Source: a virus. From it: a DNA stretch of 62,152 nt. The notes beneath the pieces were generated by a model, which was given only the letters and a program-made list of their open reading frames with translations, did not search any database and had not been told where the DNA came from. Every line of letters starts with the position of its first letter. The stretch's first letter is position 1. Shown here one piece after another: positions 29,976 through 40,869 of this stretch. The stretch lies in the IMG/VR virus record IMGVR_UViG_3300023178_003128, positions 1-62,152 of that record; one strand, written 5' to 3'. The position numbers and the translations under genes were made by a program.

Positions 29976-30002
29976 AATACCCGCTCAGGCGGGTATTTTT
30001 TT
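29976..30002 (+). terminator. Strong intrinsic terminator after gp32
   Basis: AATACCCGC (29976-29984) pairs with GCGGGTATT (29989-29997), a 9-bp stem with TCAG loop, then T-run to 30002. It separates gp32 from the opposing tail genes and may work in both directions. Confidence 0.85.
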
Positions 30003-31743
30003 ATGCCGTTCTTGCGACTAATTGTCCGCTATCTCGTTTTTCTCTTTGAATAGTAACATCTTTACTTACAATGTTTGTATTTGTTGTTGTTGGTGCATTA
30101 ATAATTGTTGGATTTTCCGCTTTCATCATACTTCTTTTACCCACAGCGATATCATTTGAAGCCATAGAAATTGAAGAACCTTGTTCATCACCAGCCTGTG
30201 CAATTAAACCAACAATTTTAGGTCCTCTGACACCAACCTGAGAAAACCATTTACTATCTTTTAGATTTTCAGATGCTAGTGTAAAGTTTCCTTGTTCTAA
30301 TGCAGCTTTTGTGTTTGGCCATTTAGGCCACCATTTGCCCATATTAAATGCAAGGTCAATCATTGCACCTTTACCTGCTTCGTTTGCTTGAGCATAACCA
30401 GGTGTTTGTTCTGCTATTTTTTTGTGATGTTCAAAATCTTTTTCAAACATACTTGCAACTTCTTCATCACTAAATCTTCTATCCATAGAAGACGGTAATG
30501 TATTACCTATCAAGTGACCAACACCAACAGTCCAAAGTCCTTCCGTGTCTTTGTAAGGAGTATTTTCCCAACCCTCGTGTTGTATTATCATTGATTTGGT
30601 ATCATCAAAGGACATACTTGGAACAGCTTCTGGAGTAGTTTCTGCTGATGGTGGTTCAGTAATAGTTGTTTCTGGCGTTACAGTTGGAGTTGCTCCTTCT
30701 TCTACCGCATCTTGTTTTTCTCCCTCTCCACCAGGTTGATTAAATTCTTTCCACAGTTGATATATTTCATATGCAGACCAAACTGATAAACCTATATTAA
30801 CAATAGCAGCTATCCAACCAACAACAGGTATGGCTGCTAAACCAGCAGCTGTTGCTAGTCTTACTCCAACTTTTGCCATAAGTTTTGGTGATTTTCTTTT
30901 TGCAAAATTTAAAAAGCGAGTCCATTTTGAATTTGAACCTTTTAAAGCTTTCATTTGTTTTTGTTTTGTTAAGGCTTCTTTTTTATCAAGTTCAGCAAAT
31001 TTTCTCGCTTGTCTATTTTTTAATCCAACTTTCGCTTTGTTTTTTAATTTATTAATGACCGCTTTGCCGACTTTGTATTGAACAACCGCACCGGCTGTTG
31101 CAGCTGCAGCTGCTTGATTTTGTTGTAATTCTTTATCAATGTTTAAAGTGGCGTTTGGTTTTGGTGCAGGAAGTTGTTGTCCTGTAATAAAAGATAAAAT
31201 ATTGTTTAGACCAATAGCAATCATATCACCAATTCTTAAAAAGAAGTCTTTAACTTTATCAAAGAAGCCTGCGTTTTCTATTGTTTTTCCTACTGTTGAT
31301 TCTTCACTTGAAAATATATCTTTTATAAAGCCTGAAAAATCACTCCACTTCTCTTTGAAAAATTTAGGTAATTCTTCTGAAAACATTTTTTTAAATGTTT
31401 CAACTAATGCTTCACCTATACCTTTTAATTGGGGTTCAAATTCTTTGTATAATTTTGGTAGGGCATATAAAGCACCCATAGCCAAAATCACACCTTTAAT
31501 TATTTTAGAAAATAAACTTTCTTTTTTCTTTTCTTTTTCTTCAACAGTAACTTCAACTTCTGGAGTTGGAGATATTTCACTACCTTTTGGAATTTCAATA
31601 GCTGTAGAAACATTTCGACCGGTTCTAAGTTTTACATATTCAACAAAGTCTTTTGCTATAGCAGAAAAGCTTTCAGTAATAACTGAATAAACATCTAAGC
31701 TTATTGTTCTTTGTCTTTCTAAGGTTGGTGAAGTATCTGCCAT
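30001..31743 (-). CDS. Tail structural protein with C-terminal T4-type lysozyme
   Basis: 580 aa. Residues 1-75 are variable; 78-98 a hydrophobic helix (IIKGVILAMGALYALPKLY); about 100-190 amphipathic helices; 200-340 Ala/Lys-rich with a second hydrophobic block (LAAIPVVGWIAAIVNIGLSVWSAY). After a Pro/Thr linker, residues 378-535 are a GH24 lysozyme: IIQHEGWENTPYKDTEGLWTVGVGHLIG with Glu390, Asp399 and Thr405, then LAFNMGKWWPKWPNTKAAL. The hydrophobic/helical front resembles a tape measure, so this is probably ejected from the tail to cut peptidoglycan at entry. Starts 2 nt after the 656-aa gene's stop. Confidence 0.75.
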   Translation of the reverse strand: MADTSPTLERQRTISLDVYSVITESFSAIAKDFVEYVKLRTGRNVSTAIEIPKGSEISPTPEVEVTVEEKEKKKESLFSKIIKGVILAMGALYALPKLYKEFEPQLKGIGEALVETFKKMFSEELPKFFKEKWSDFSGFIKDIFSSEESTVGKTIENAGFFDKVKDFFLRIGDMIAIGLNNILSFITGQQLPAPKPNATLNIDKELQQNQAAAAATAGAVVQYKVGKAVINKLKNKAKVGLKNRQARKFAELDKKEALTKQKQMKALKGSNSKWTRFLNFAKRKSPKLMAKVGVRLATAAGLAAIPVVGWIAAIVNIGLSVWSAYEIYQLWKEFNQPGGEGEKQDAVEEGATPTVTPETTITEPPSAETTPEAVPSMSFDDTKSMIIQHEGWENTPYKDTEGLWTVGVGHLIGNTLPSSMDRRFSDEEVASMFEKDFEHHKKIAEQTPGYAQANEAGKGAMIDLAFNMGKWWPKWPNTKAALEQGNFTLASENLKDSKWFSQVGVRGPKIVGLIAQAGDEQGSSISMASNDIAVGKRSMMKAENPTIINAPTTTNTNIVSKDVTIQREKRDSGQLVARTA

Positions 31744-31744
31744 A

Positions 31745-33715
31745 TTATGTGCTCATAAGTGCATCAGCAAAGTCAAAGTTTAATACTTCTGCTGGTGGCG
31801 GAGACTTACTTGAATTTGTTGATTGATTTTTTATTTGTGGTGCATTAATTAAACTTCCAGAATCTTGCATCATTTCTGCTCTTTGGCCACTTTCCACTTC
31901 TGTTGAACCAGCTGAAATTGTTTGGCCTGATGTAGCTGCACCAAATGGTGTAACTGGTTCAGGTGTAACGCCACCAGCATTAATTTTATTTGATAATGTT
32001 GATTGAGCACCTTCTAATGAACCAGAAGCATCTTTACTTCTTTCTCCCATTTGACCAAAAGCTGCTTCTAAACCACCACCTTTCATAAAAGCATCAGCCT
32101 TACCCATGTCTGATTGCATACCTTTATTCATAGCGTCTCTATCAACTTTTTCACCAAAAAAGTTTTCAGCTAAACTAGCTGCACCGCCAAATCCTTCAGG
32201 TGACAATTTACCCATATTATCACCCATGAAGTTGCTTAAATTGCTTTGCATATCACCACTTTTTGCCATACCCATATTCAATGGACTTGTTTTAGCAGCA
32301 CTATTGTCTGAAACTTTTTGTGGTGTTACACTTGCAGCTTCATTATTTGATGTGGCTGGCGCTTCTGTTGTTGATGATTTTTCATCTTTAACAGACGGCA
32401 TAGCTCCAGATTCAACACCTGAAACAGTTGGTTCAGCCGATTCGGCCTGAGCAGCTGGCGCTTCAGGCATAGGATCTGGTGCAGGCCTTTCACTTTTTTC
32501 AGCCTCAGCACTTGATGGATTATCTTTAAATGGATACCAAGGACCAAATCCATATGTTTCACCACCAACAGTAAATAAATCAACTCTAGGTATTCCAATA
32601 TTATTAATCATCCAGTCTTTCATATCATAAAACTTGCCAACAATTGCATTTTTTATTTCTGTATATTTTGATTCTATACTAAATTTAACACCATCTAATG
32701 TTTCTTTTGATAAAAGTCCAAGAGTTAAAAAGTTTAATACAGCAGTAAGACCTTCTGCTAATGCTTTTCCTAAACTTCCCGATTTACTGAATTCTTCAAA
32801 CCCAGCTTTAAATCCAACAAAAATTGAACCAACAACAGCAGCAAAAGCGAATAATTTTTTGAATATTGAGAATAAGAATTTTGGACTAAACAATAAACCA
32901 AATGCTTTACCTATACCATTAAAAACCAATGAAGTTATGTTTTTAAGAAAACCCATAATACCGCCACCAGATTTTTTAGTTTCACCACCACCCTCAGCTG
33001 TGACTTGAATGGGTGCTACATTTTTAGCTTCGAGAGCGGCTTCTCTAGCATCCTGTTCTTGTAAAAATCTAGTTTGTTCAGCACGCTTTCCTTGTTCTTT
33101 ACCTTCTTTTTCAAAATCAAGTAGAGTAGATATTGCATTACGAATAATTATAATATCTTTTGCAACACCGGCTAGATTACCTAATCCTTCAGTTTTTCCT
33201 CCAACGGGTGTGGGTGATAGCGCTGTTAGTTTTGTTAGACCATATTTTCGTTGTTGAGCCCACTGTTCTTCTTCTGTGAGTTTAGTAAATCGTCCTGTTT
33301 TTTCATCACGACCCACTAACTTTTTATCATAAGATTCCATAAACTCCATTTTTGGAGTTTCAGCTGGCTTTGCAACTTCTTTAGGTTGTTCTTTAGGCTT
33401 AGGCATAGCTTTTGGTTTTTTAGCCAATCTGCCACGCATATATGCAGAAAAGATATCATCACCGGAGAAGAAATTCATATAAGCTTTTTTAGCAATGTTT
33501 TTAGGATTCATTGCTGTTTTAATGCCTTTTGCTCCTTCTCCTATACCGCCAGCAAACGCTTCTCCAAAACCAGCACCTTGTTCAAGGCGTTGTTTTATGC
33601 CACCAGAATATCCTTTTTTATTTGCTTGTTGATATTCTTTGTAGTTACTATAACCTAGGTCTTTAGCAAGACTTTCTTTATAGTCAGAAACAGCGGTATT
33701 AAATGTGTTAGCCAT
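31745..33715 (-). CDS. Probable tape-measure / hub protein (gp29-like position)
   Basis: 656 aa. N-terminal helical, Lys-rich region; middle hydrophobic segments (GGGIMGFLKNITSLVFNGIGKAFGLLFSPKFLFSIFKKLFAFAAVVGSIFVGF, about 255-305, and LAEGLTAVLNFLTLGLL, about 325-341); Pro/Ala/Glu-rich low-complexity tail. Hydrophobic stretches in an otherwise polar, helical protein are typical of tape measures. It begins with TAATG overlap right after the gp26 frameshift extension, the standard place of the tape measure behind tail-assembly chaperones. Shares its plan with the lysozyme protein after it. No sequence match to T4 gp29 is visible to me. Confidence 0.6.
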   Translation of the reverse strand: MANTFNTAVSDYKESLAKDLGYSNYKEYQQANKKGYSGGIKQRLEQGAGFGEAFAGGIGEGAKGIKTAMNPKNIAKKAYMNFFSGDDIFSAYMRGRLAKKPKAMPKPKEQPKEVAKPAETPKMEFMESYDKKLVGRDEKTGRFTKLTEEEQWAQQRKYGLTKLTALSPTPVGGKTEGLGNLAGVAKDIIIIRNAISTLLDFEKEGKEQGKRAEQTRFLQEQDAREAALEAKNVAPIQVTAEGGGETKKSGGGIMGFLKNITSLVFNGIGKAFGLLFSPKFLFSIFKKLFAFAAVVGSIFVGFKAGFEEFSKSGSLGKALAEGLTAVLNFLTLGLLSKETLDGVKFSIESKYTEIKNAIVGKFYDMKDWMINNIGIPRVDLFTVGGETYGFGPWYPFKDNPSSAEAEKSERPAPDPMPEAPAAQAESAEPTVSGVESGAMPSVKDEKSSTTEAPATSNNEAASVTPQKVSDNSAAKTSPLNMGMAKSGDMQSNLSNFMGDNMGKLSPEGFGGAASLAENFFGEKVDRDAMNKGMQSDMGKADAFMKGGGLEAAFGQMGERSKDASGSLEGAQSTLSNKINAGGVTPEPVTPFGAATSGQTISAGSTEVESGQRAEMMQDSGSLINAPQIKNQSTNSSKSPPPAEVLNFDFADALMST

Positions 33716-33924
33716 TACCTATTTTTTCTCTGTAATTGTTGTAATCGAATTCTTTCTTTTTCTTCTTCCAAATACTTAATTAACATATTAACATAGATAG
33801 TTCTTTCCCAAGGAATCATTTGTTCAAGCTCAGTCAAACTATATTTGTGATGTTGCATTAATGCAAAGTTTGTCTGATAGTAGTTCCCTAGTGTATCATA
33901 ACGAAAAATTAGACGAAAAAATTT
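33715..33924 (-). CDS. Frameshift extension of gp26 (tail-assembly chaperone C-part)
   Basis: A frame open in the -1 phase relative to gp26 continues past the gp26 stop for about 60 codons to TAA 33717-33715. After the shift it reads KFFRLIFRYDTLGNYYQTNFALMQHHKYSLTELE..., then IPWERTIYVNMLIKYLEEEKERIRLQQ. No ATG occurs before 33858, which would give only the last 47 aa and drop the Tyr-rich part. The overlap, the slippery site inside it and its place just before the tape measure match the G/GT arrangement of tail chaperones. An independent 47-aa protein from ATG 33858 is the alternative. Confidence 0.6.
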   Translation of the reverse strand, partial: KFFRLIFRYDTLGNYYQTNFALMQHHKYSLTELEQMIPWERTIYVNMLIKYLEEEKERIRLQQLQRKNR

Positions 33925-34640
33925 TGAATTCCTTGTATTGCGATGTCTTCTTTATATTTGCAACGAGGACATTCAAAAGTCACATCTTTTTTAATTTTTG
34001 GAACAGTGTCAAAAAACACTTTAATCTTCTCTAAATCTTTTTGTTGAAGATTATCCACAAAGTCTGTTAATTCTTCTTTGGTTGTATCTTTTGCATAATA
34101 CATTTGTTCATTGTCGTAAATGTAATCAATACAATCAACTAAAACATTAGTGATAACATCTTCACCTTCAGCTGATTCAAATTTTTCAACCATTTCAAAT
34201 GTAGGATATTTTAATACTAATCCTAACTTATCACTTAACTGTATTTTGTTTGTATGATTGGGATCTTTACTCGGTTCAATCTCAAGTAAATTAACATCAA
34301 TCTCTACAACGCCATTACATTTAGCATCTTTACCTTCTTCGTCTTTGACATTGTTATTACATTTATAATTTAAATGAACAACTTCCTCAACAGACCTTGC
34401 TCGTAGTTGAATAAACAACCATTCTAAATCAAATGTTGGTAAAGAATCAACATCAATATCATCAATAATACAATTTCTTAAAACTTGTTTTATAACATTA
34501 ATTGTTTCTTTTGGGTCTTCTGATTCTGAAGCCATCAAAAACAATTTCTGTTCTTTGACCAAGAATGGGCGATATCGTATGGTTTGTCCCGTTGATATCA
34601 AGCTCACTTCAAAGGTCGGTACATCTAACTTTGGTAACAT
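33909..34640 (-). CDS. 26: gp26-like baseplate hub / tail-assembly chaperone
   Basis: 243 aa: MLPKLDVPTFEVSLISTGQTIRYRPFLVKEQKLFLMASES... is the T4 gp26 (T4_baseplate, PF12322-type) start. SLPTFDLEWLFIQLRARSVEEVVHLNYKC follows, and four cysteines (KCNNN...AKC, and ECPRCKY near the end) could bind zinc. gp26 acts in baseplate hub assembly. It lies two genes ahead of lysozyme and one ahead of the tape-measure candidate. The C-terminus IQNFFV overlaps the slippery heptamer. Ribosome site GAGG 10 nt upstream. Confidence 0.8.
   Translation of the reverse strand: MLPKLDVPTFEVSLISTGQTIRYRPFLVKEQKLFLMASESEDPKETINVIKQVLRNCIIDDIDVDSLPTFDLEWLFIQLRARSVEEVVHLNYKCNNNVKDEEGKDAKCNGVVEIDVNLLEIEPSKDPNHTNKIQLSDKLGLVLKYPTFEMVEKFESAEGEDVITNVLVDCIDYIYDNEQMYYAKDTTKEELTDFVDNLQQKDLEKIKVFFDTVPKIKKDVTFECPRCKYKEDIAIQGIQNFFV
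33918..33924 (-). other. Candidate -1 ribosomal slippery heptamer
   Basis: On the minus strand the gp26 codons CAA AAT TTT TTC contain A AAT TTT, an X XXY YYZ heptamer in the correct phase, 7 nt before the gp26 stop TAA (33911-33909). Slipping one base back gives AAA TTT and continues into the extension frame. I see no strong downstream stem-loop. Confidence 0.55.
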
Positions 34641-34659: not shown

Positions 34660-35424
34660 TTAAAATGGCAAGTTTGTCACAGCCTTACCAAATGGTAAAA
34701 GTCTTGCACCAGCAGCACCAAATAGTGCTGAAGCTGCTTGACCTAAATCATAACTACCATCATAAGTCACTCTGTATTTTTGATAAGCAAATTGAACAGA
34801 TAACCTATGAAAATTATCATCTGACCAATTGAGTGTTTGAGGTGCGATGCCAACAGGAAACGCATCTAGTAACTCAACGGCAAATATTTTCTTAATAAAC
34901 TCATCATATTGTATAACTTTAATGTTACACATATAACGAGATGTTTCTCCTTTTGGAAATCTTAAATTATTTGTATCAGACGGCATAATTGCTTCCATCC
35001 ATTTGTCAAATAATTTTCTTTCGTAAAAATCGTTTGTGCATAGAAATGTTAAATTCATATCAGCATACATTGACTGATAAGGTACCTTAAATGTTGGACC
35101 ATAGATTTTAACATCCGCTGTTTGTAATGTTCTACCTGGCAATTCAGCAGCTTCACATTGAAGTGAAAGATAACGAGATAAAGATGAATTACCTGAGCGA
35201 GAAAACTCGTCTTGGCCACTAGAACCACCTATAGCTGAATTGATAGCATCTGACACATCATTGAATACTGAATTTGGAAAATTAAGTATTTTTTCAATGA
35301 TTGAATTGCCAACAGAATTACTTACAGCTGGTGGAATAGGTAATATAACTTCAAATCGTGATGGTCTTGCTAGACCGCTTTTGCCACGAATATTAGATAA
35401 AAATATGTTAGGTGAGAATGACAT
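34660..35424 (-). CDS. Tail-tube-fold baseplate protein (gp54-like)
   Basis: 254 aa. ARPSRFEVILPIPP at the start, LSLQCEAAELPGRTLQTADVKIYGPTFKVPYQ, DMNLTFLCTNDFYERKLFDKWMEAI, and a C-terminal NWSDDNFHRLSVQFAYQKYRV are features of the phage tail-tube fold shared by gp19, gp48 and gp54. Its place in the hub cluster suggests the tube initiator gp54; a second tube-cap is possible. One-base overlap with the gene upstream. Confidence 0.6.
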   Translation of the reverse strand: MSFSPNIFLSNIRGKSGLARPSRFEVILPIPPAVSNSVGNSIIEKILNFPNSVFNDVSDAINSAIGGSSGQDEFSRSGNSSLSRYLSLQCEAAELPGRTLQTADVKIYGPTFKVPYQSMYADMNLTFLCTNDFYERKLFDKWMEAIMPSDTNNLRFPKGETSRYMCNIKVIQYDEFIKKIFAVELLDAFPVGIAPQTLNWSDDNFHRLSVQFAYQKYRVTYDGSYDLGQAASALFGAAGARLLPFGKAVTNLPF

Positions 35425-38541: not shown

Positions 38542-39878
38542 TGAGTGAATTGTCTGTTAGTCAATCGACCGACTTTTATCTTGAGCAAGTTGCAATAGTT
38601 ACAAAATCGGGAACAATTGACATTAAAGAAATCTTTGAGGAAATAAGTGTGTTTGATTCTTTATTTCTTCCTGTAATCAATGGTCAAATTATGATTACAG
38701 ATTCTCTTGGTTTATCAAATAAACTTCTTTTTGATGGTTCAGAAACATTATTAATTACAATTAAAAAAGATATAAATTCGGATGTAGCTTCATTCAGAAA
38801 AGCATTTCGCATTTACAAACAAACCAATAGAAGAAATCTAAATCAAGGAACAGAATCATACATTCTTCATTTTGTTTCAGATGAACTTTTATTTTCAGAC
38901 CAACAAAGAGTTAATCAAAGCTATACAGGAAAATATTCAGAAATAGTTGAGCGAATTATGCTTGATTATTTAAAAATACCAAAAAATAACTTAACGGGTT
39001 TATACCAAGACACAGCTGGTGTTAGAAAAGTTGTTATACCTAATCTTAGACCAATAGAAGCAATTGAATGGTGTTCAAAAAGAGCCGTTGATTTAGAAAG
39101 CTCACCAAATTATGTTTTCTTTCAAAATATTTCTGGTTATAATTTTGTTTCATTATCAAAATTGCTAACTTTACCTGAAATATTGGATGTGAAGTTTCAA
39201 CCAAAAAACACATCAAACGAAAATAGTTTATCTGAAATATCTTCTGCTAGAAGTTTTGAGGTTGTTAGTCAAAATGATTCTATGGAGAAAATAAGAAGTG
39301 GTGTTAATGCTGGTAAATTTATAGGATTTGATCCATTAACAAGAACGGTCAGTTCAAGAGGTATAAGTTTTTTAGATGTTTATAGTTCAATGAAACATGG
39401 AAATGATAAACCCAATGCTTCAGATGTAAAAAATAGAGCGGGTGAAAGTATATACCAAGCTTTTGATTCACACAAAGTTGTTAATATTGTTGGTACAGCA
39501 AGAAAATATAGTGAGTATATCAAAGCAAAAGACCCAACTTCTTTAACTTATGTTGAAGATTATGAGAATCAAATACTACAACGAAAAGCTATACTAAAAC
39601 ATTTAATGTCTAAAAGATTAAAGTTTGTTATGCCTGGTAATTTTCAATTATCATCCGGTTTTAATGTCAATGTTATGATTCCAGAATTAGGATTACAAGA
39701 ATCAAATGTATCAGAAGAAGATAAAACACTGAGTGGTCGCCATTTGATTGTTAATTCAAGGCAAATTATTACATTTGATAAACACGAAACAATTATTGAA
39801 GTAGCATCAACATCAACAAATCAAGAATTTATTGCATCTGATAATCCAAATCAAACAGCTGCAATACAAGAATATTAA
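38541..39878 (+). CDS. gp27-like baseplate hub protein
   Basis: 445 aa. Beta-rich start (LEQVAIVTKSGTIDIKEIFEEISVFDSLFLPVINGQIMITDSLGLSNKLLFDGSETLLI) typical of the gp27/gpD hub barrel, a central helical domain, and LRPIEAIEWCSKRAV. The gene order gp53, hub, gp5-like, and the following OB-fold spike protein support gp27. Similarity to T4 gp27 itself is low by eye. Confidence 0.65.
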   Translation: MSELSVSQSTDFYLEQVAIVTKSGTIDIKEIFEEISVFDSLFLPVINGQIMITDSLGLSNKLLFDGSETLLITIKKDINSDVASFRKAFRIYKQTNRRNLNQGTESYILHFVSDELLFSDQQRVNQSYTGKYSEIVERIMLDYLKIPKNNLTGLYQDTAGVRKVVIPNLRPIEAIEWCSKRAVDLESSPNYVFFQNISGYNFVSLSKLLTLPEILDVKFQPKNTSNENSLSEISSARSFEVVSQNDSMEKIRSGVNAGKFIGFDPLTRTVSSRGISFLDVYSSMKHGNDKPNASDVKNRAGESIYQAFDSHKVVNIVGTARKYSEYIKAKDPTSLTYVEDYENQILQRKAILKHLMSKRLKFVMPGNFQLSSGFNVNVMIPELGLQESNVSEEDKTLSGRHLIVNSRQIITFDKHETIIEVASTSTNQEFIASDNPNQTAAIQEY

Positions 39879-39879
39879 T

Positions 39880-40869
39880 ATGGAAAACCAAGATAAAAAG
39901 AACTTTGCTGGTAAAAACGGATTCACTTGGTGGGTTGGTATTGTAGAAGATAGAAAAGACCCAATCAAACTTGGCCGTTGTCGTGTTCGTTGTGTTGGTT
40001 GGCACGCTGATGATAAGATGAGATTGCCAACAAAAGATTTGCCATGGGCAACTCCTTCTTTTCCTGTAAATGATAACAACACATTTGTACCAAAAGAAGG
40101 TGATATGGTTTTTGGTTTTTTTGTTGATGGAGAAAATGCACAAGAACCAGTAATGTTAGGTGTGTTGCCTAATATTCCATTGTTTGCAGCTGATAGACAA
40201 AAAGCTTACAATGACCCACGAACAGATGCTGAGTTAGCTAATGCACCTAGACCGCCACAATCAAAGTCATATGTAAAAGATGGTTCAGGTATTGTTATAA
40301 CAGAACAAAGTCAAGCAACTTTAAATCCAAATATACTTGATGAGCCAACAACATCTCGTATTGCAAGAAATGATAGCGATACAATTACAAAGACTTATAT
40401 ACAAGAAAGAAAAGATGAGATTGTAACAGGCGTTCCAACATATAACTCAACATGGTCTGAACCCGAAACAAAGTATGATGCACAATATCCTTATAATCGT
40501 GTAACAGAAACGGAATCAGGTCATGTATTTGAAGTTGATGATACACCAGGTAAAGAAAGAATACATCAAGCACACCGTAATGGTTCATTTCAGGAATGGT
40601 TTCCTGATGGTGACAAAGTAGAGAAAGTCACAAAAGATAACTATGAGATTGTTTATGGTGATGATAATGTTTATATTATGGGAAAATGTAATGTGACTGT
40701 TCAAGGTGATGCTGAAGTTTATGTAAAAGAAAATGCTTATCTAAAAGTGGATAAAAATGTTGAAGTAACCGTTGGTGGAAACTATAATGAAAAAGTTAGT
40801 GGAACTTATACAGTAACATCGGGTGGCAATATGAAGTTTGTTGCACCAAGAATTGACTTTAACCCATGA
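39880..40869 (+). CDS. gp5-like spike/hub protein without lysozyme
   Basis: 329 aa from ATG 39880, just after the previous stop. N-terminal OB fold (WWVGIVEDRKDPIKLGRCRVRCVGWHADDK...LPWATPSFP, GDMVFGFFVDGENAQEPVMLGVLP; about 12-105). A linker follows, then HVFEVDDTPGKERIHQAHRNGSFQEWFPDG and beta-helix repeats (VYIMGKCNVTVQGDAEVYVKENAYLKVDKNVEVTVGGNYNEKVSG) forming the needle. T4 gp5 has a lysozyme between these parts; none is here, so the lytic domain lies in the tail protein at 30001. A PAAR protein for the tip is encoded at 43043. Confidence 0.82.
   Translation: MENQDKKNFAGKNGFTWWVGIVEDRKDPIKLGRCRVRCVGWHADDKMRLPTKDLPWATPSFPVNDNNTFVPKEGDMVFGFFVDGENAQEPVMLGVLPNIPLFAADRQKAYNDPRTDAELANAPRPPQSKSYVKDGSGIVITEQSQATLNPNILDEPTTSRIARNDSDTITKTYIQERKDEIVTGVPTYNSTWSEPETKYDAQYPYNRVTETESGHVFEVDDTPGKERIHQAHRNGSFQEWFPDGDKVEKVTKDNYEIVYGDDNVYIMGKCNVTVQGDAEVYVKENAYLKVDKNVEVTVGGNYNEKVSGTYTVTSGGNMKFVAPRIDFNP

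Follow-up and report, generated by a model that had tools for sequence, protein, structure and literature searches.

Among the long-tailed phages, one of the closest described counterparts of the locus studied here is the gpG/gpGT pair of phage lambda, in which a short form and a -1 frameshifted long form are encoded after the tail tube gene and before the tape measure gene (here a tape-measure-like one). A review treats this G-T frameshifting as a conserved trait of long-tailed phages, with T4 as the exception (PMC5009743). The contractile-tailed phage P2 has a related arrangement, E/E+E', in which ribosomes move to the -1 frame on a poly-T stretch (GGTTTTTTG in the P2 record) and the tape measure gene follows directly; gpE is, however, far smaller than the protein that we consider. 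In T4 itself, gp26 and gp51 are described as chaperones of hub assembly (PMC3004832), while the gp51 of cyanophages and vibriophages is described as being without its first ~200 residues (Sullivan et al. 2010, PMC3037559). To judge from the title and from papers that cite it, the work of Vladimirov, Gautam and Davidson (2022, Virology 566:9-15) identifies tail chaperones in T4-like phages. One citing paper (PMC10885494) refers to it for separate short and long chaperone genes in some T4-like phages, and another (PMC12846349) credits it with the poly-T slip sites of such chaperone genes. As far as this title and the citing papers tell, these are the same genes as the ones examined here; a frameshifted chaperone in T4 relatives was probably already published in 2022, and the surprise of the present result is therefore limited.

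The DNA under study is the record of a T4-like marine virus, 62,152 nucleotides long (IMGVR_UViG_3300023178_003128), which we call the window. Its features of interest are collected in Table 1. The family T4_baseplate (PF12322) matches residues 8-242 of the short form (E=9e-61; 205.8 bits, cut-off 24.5), and a profile search matches it to phrog_150, which holds T4 gp26 and gp51 (E=7e-67). This is the single PF12322 domain in the whole 62-kb record, which may itself be a fragment. The gene order is tail tube, chaperone, long open reading frame. The place and the length of this last gene agree with an earlier reading of the letters alone (the sequence-only reading), which called it tape-measure-like, but profile searches, tape-measure families included, match it to no family.

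Table 1. Features of the gp26 region in the window, with the evidence for each.
Feature	Position	Strand	Size	Evidence
Tail tube protein, gene upstream of gp26	34660..35424	-		phrog_45 tail tube, E=5e-40
gp26-like predicted tail assembly chaperone, short form, 0 frame	33909..34640	-	243 aa, 28.2 kDa	PF12322, phrog_150, predicted fold
AAGGA, Shine-Dalgarno-like, 8 nt upstream of the heptamer, possible stimulator	33930..33934	-		anti-SD pairing
A AAT TTT, in phase, heptamer of the sequence-only reading, at most an aid	33918..33924	-		40/94 relatives
T TTT TTC, in phase, proposed -1 shift site	33915..33921	-		conserved across relatives
-1 frame extension, gp51-like C-terminal domain	33715..33915	-	66 codons + TAA	phrog_634, -1 frame conservation
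Next gene, tape-measure-like	31745..33715	-	656 aa	place, length, hydrophobic stretches

We propose that gp26 and its -1 extension very probably constitute a tail chaperone pair of the lambda G/GT type, made by a programmed -1 frameshift. The sequence-only reading had suggested the same, and the comparative data lend it support: the in-phase slip site is conserved, the -1 frame is under selection, the fusion is homologous to T4 gp51 over its whole length, the predicted fold is chaperone-like, and T4 has short and extended paralogues. The gp26 gene ends CAA AAT TTT TTC GTC TAA. Most ribosomes would terminate at this stop codon and release the short form. In a fraction of them, the tRNAs on TTT and TTC at T TTT TTC would re-pair one base back on TTT TTT, and the shifted ribosomes would go on with CGT CTA ATT... 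to give a long form of 308 aa (predicted 36.5 kDa). On the model of lambda, both forms would coat the tape-measure protein with the N-terminal part that they have in common, the less abundant long form would bring in tail-tube subunits with its extension, and both would be gone by the time the virion is complete. In this scheme we infer the occurrence of the shift, its rate and the roles of the two products.

The question is then which letters of the junction serve as the slip site. We compared 169 loci besides the window, taken from two viral-contig searches and from annotated phages. T4, Mineola and IME13, which are of the split-gene type, were left out of the slip-site scoring, as were five further loci whose junction was incomplete or not correctly scored. 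The 162 usable sequences, the window included, reduce to 94 when near-duplicates are removed. In this set the heptamer TTTTTTC is found in 91 and TTTTTTT in the other 3, 10 bases ahead of the gp26 stop or a codon further upstream. The sequence-only reading had pointed to A AAT TTT, which overlaps T TTT TTC by four bases. It is in phase as claimed, but with an occurrence of 40 in 94 we rule it out as the functional site; the relatives that do not have it mostly read AGT or GAT TTT TTC. An alignment of gp26 3' ends, which that reading had put forward as a check, thus confirms a conserved heptamer and a conserved -1 frame, with the heptamer being one that it had not named.

To control for relatedness, we compare the 31 gp26 codon columns, those of the site included, whose third base is T or C almost without exception (NNY). 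The third-base T of the codon before TTT and the third-base T of TTT itself are each present in 94/94 and are the top two of the 31 columns; the C ending TTC is kept in 91/94, the other NNY columns range from 0.54 to 0.93, and the median of all is 0.78. The residue before the two phenylalanines varies (N, S, D, A, T) although its third-base T is invariant. The C of TTC doubles as the start of the Arg codon in the -1 frame, so only the two T's count as independent evidence for slipping. The slip site of lambda is G GGA AAG. The T TTT TTC site is unlike it, and the likeness to gpG/gpGT is one of described arrangement.

We turn our attention to the -1 frame itself. A shift at either heptamer leaves it open for 66 codons, up to a TAA (33717-33715) whose last base is the first of the ATG of the next gene (TAATG, a 1-base overlap), and its first ATG lies at 33858. 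The open frame of about 60 codons, the late ATG and the TAATG end described from the letters alone are all borne out, with 66 codons as the exact count. For random codons at 31% G+C, the chance of a frame staying open this long is about 0.005; what places it well beyond chance is its conservation, with the extension lying in the -1 frame in all 94 non-redundant relatives. In 89/94 the first -1 codon after the slip encodes Arg, whereas the 0-frame codon that it overlaps is not constant (Val, Gly, Ala, Glu, Thr, Ile). Residues that precede the first ATG are also kept (for example L11 in 94/94, N13 in 89, T17 in 91, N18 in 92 and F19 in 93), and the entropy between the slip and the first ATG resides mostly at -1 third positions. 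This substitution pattern shows that the -1 frame has been selected as protein beginning at the slip site, which in most relatives precedes every ATG. The family phrog_634 ('baseplate hub assembly catalyst'), that of the T4 gp51 C-terminus, matches the extension with E=4e-27 and T4 gp51 with E=1e-23; by these profile matches the extension is a homologue of the gp51 C-terminus. Its structure model is all helical, at a modest confidence (pLDDT 73.6). A comparison by hhalign with the E' extension of P2 gives a probability of 1.5% over 10 columns, where a SLTEL...W likeness is non-significant.

Could the extension instead be a separate small gene, the one annotated as gp51 in cyanophages, with a start of its own or coupled to the gp26 stop? 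Many records do annotate such a start, and in 12/94 relatives the first ATG falls at -1 or +2, overlapping or just past the gp26 stop. The annotated starts, however, disagree among records, and there is no ATG before +53 in 64/94 and none before +50 in 13 more. In 89/94 we find no ATG, GTG or TTG with a Shine-Dalgarno (SD)-like match up to +60, whereas the start of gp26, our positive control, has such a match in 84/90. The first ATG of the next gene passes the same SD criterion in 27/94 only, so the absence of an SD match is not decisive by itself. In addition, conservation already begins at the slip site, before an ATG appears in most relatives, and a separate gene leaves the invariant T's of the heptamer unexplained. 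A separate gene is for these reasons very unlikely. The outcome that would have spoken against a shift according to the sequence-only reading, a heptamer lost in relatives while the downstream frame gains its own ATG and ribosome site, is also not what the 94 relatives present, with the slip heptamer being kept and the SD-matched start missing in all except five.

A slip of RNA polymerase on the T run, giving mixed mRNAs, would draw on a run of six T's that nearly all relatives possess. Transcriptional slippage generally wants longer runs, and this one is just six long, nearly always ended by a C, and set in the codon phase of a ribosomal heptamer; we give this explanation scarcely any weight. 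The idea that a gp26-gp51 fusion has decayed into two frames, or that a sequencing error separates them, takes its appeal from T4, which carries the fused form as one open reading frame. Yet the frame relation, the stop position and the heptamer are the same in 94 non-redundant loci from many assemblies, and the -1 frame is conserved as protein, so that decay or error is already refuted by the comparative data and has practically no chance of being right. The programmed ribosomal shift explains these data best.

We looked for stimulators of such a shift on both sides of the heptamer. The AGG-rich stretch upstream of it (AAGGA in the window) pairs with the anti-SD at -5.9, the strongest value among the sampled points of gp26. 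Synonymous shuffles of it give -4.8, and pairing at no other sampled point is stronger than -2.8; the match is strong partly because the Gly codon there is invariant. A hairpin or pseudoknot shared downstream is rejected: the mean z is -0.71 downstream versus -0.70 in the upstream control, with no consensus structure. A few single phages do have a strong downstream hairpin that most relatives do not share, above all the Synechococcus phage S-WAM1 (L001:1510-1580), where a very stable hairpin follows directly after the slip (z -6.7, or -9 in another computation).

The structure model of gp26 (pLDDT 86.7) provides a further view of the short form. Its best match by VIA-align is HK97 gp13 (2ob9), with a middling Z of 7.4 and an rmsd of 3.6 over 83 residues, confined to about residues 1-90 of gp26. 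Two similar small proteins share the top rank with HK97 gp13 (Z 7.4-7.2); the fourth match stands at 5.8 and the next, to unrelated chains, at 2.6. The other matches are YqbN, RBSTP2171 and a protein of a Vibrio PICI-like element. YqbN and RBSTP2171 we take to be of the same fold family as HK97 gp13, which is the only fold match with 'tail assembly chaperone' as its entry name. A Foldseek search of the model against the PDB returns nothing under E 0.001, with HK97 gp13 ranked fourth and moving to first place on realignment by VIA-align, and a sequence search of solved structures with the gp26 and extension profiles finds nothing relevant. The modeled fold thus points to a chaperone fold in the N-terminal part of the short form.

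How does T4 relate to this arrangement? Both T4 gp26 and T4 gp51 belong to PF12322, as does the gp26 of the window, and gp51 consists of the gp26 domain plus the extension. In T4 the two forms come from separate, divergently transcribed paralogous genes, gp26 for the short and gp51 for the long one (249 aa, a single open reading frame), whereas here one gene and its -1 frame would supply both. The two T4 proteins align weakly (20% identity, E=3e-6). T4 gp26 ends in GLKEFFELL, and the gp26 of T4, Mineola and IT22 keep GLKEFF near the end, coded by TTC TTT, which is not slippery, so that the slip site is absent there.

Outside this lineage, T TTT TTC (or TTTTTTT, TTTTTTG) recurs at the corresponding position or no more than one codon away from it, followed by a -1 frame extension. 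This holds for phages of Prochlorococcus and Synechococcus and for Aeromonas CC2, Vibrio PG216, Stenotrophomonas Bhz51, Acidovorax ACP17, Sinorhizobium phiM12, Agrobacterium OLIVR5 and Rhizobium P10VF. The groups that have it include Ceceduovirus, Schizotequatrovirus, Menderavirus, Busanvirus, Emdodecavirus and Pootjesviridae. The four Ackermannviridae examined (L171, L172, L174, L180) keep a gp51-like -1 extension and are without a canonical X XXY YYZ heptamer; gp26 ends there include ATT TTC ATT TAA, GTT TTC ATC TGA and CTT TTT CGG TAA, and the shift may perhaps take place on a single tRNA. In the cyanophages, gp26 and a short 'gp51' have the same arrangement and heptamer as here, and a frameshift fusion would supply from gp26 the ~200 residues that cyanophage gp51 is missing.

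Combining this information, we tentatively consider a wider scenario, to which we give slightly less than an even chance. The -1 shift would be a general and perhaps ancestral route to gp26 and gp51 in T4-related phages, using a bare T TTT TTC and an upstream SD-like stretch without a conserved downstream RNA structure; in the T4 lineage a duplication would have been followed by fusion of the extension to one of the copies, while the second copy would have lost its slip site through a synonymous change of TTT TTC to TTC TTT. In a tree of 27 chaperone domains, the Tevenvirinae-type gp26 and gp51 each group cleanly. A single gp26/gp51 duplication in the Tevenvirinae lineage is not proven, as the tree joins the groups weakly (65/58). 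The frameshift arrangement is retained in most of the T4 relatives that we examined, with T4 itself having the two forms as separate genes, and the data thereby account both for the 'except T4' of the review (PMC5009743) and for the reduced gp51 of cyanophages (PMC3037559). If the ancestral route is true, it would explain why T4 appears as an exception and why cyanophage gp51 looks truncated.

The sequence-only reading knew of no annotation of such a shift in T4-like phages. For the gp26 records inspected this stands: a joined gp26 coding sequence is annotated in none of them, and several have no gene over the extension. As a claim of novelty it probably does not, with Vladimirov et al. (2022), as judged from the title and citing papers, having probably described the system. 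In six records (L001, L170, L171, L175, L180, L181) the public annotation leaves the extension without a gene, and in P-HM2 (L182) gp51 is annotated from an internal ATG that retains only 30 extension residues.

Elsewhere in the window, a second long open reading frame past the chaperone (30001-31743, minus strand) contains a phage lysozyme domain (PF00959, E=6e-12). A gp5-like hub protein of 345 aa (39832-40869, plus strand) is matched by hub profiles, and no lysozyme part is apparent in it, as though the tail lysozyme had changed place.
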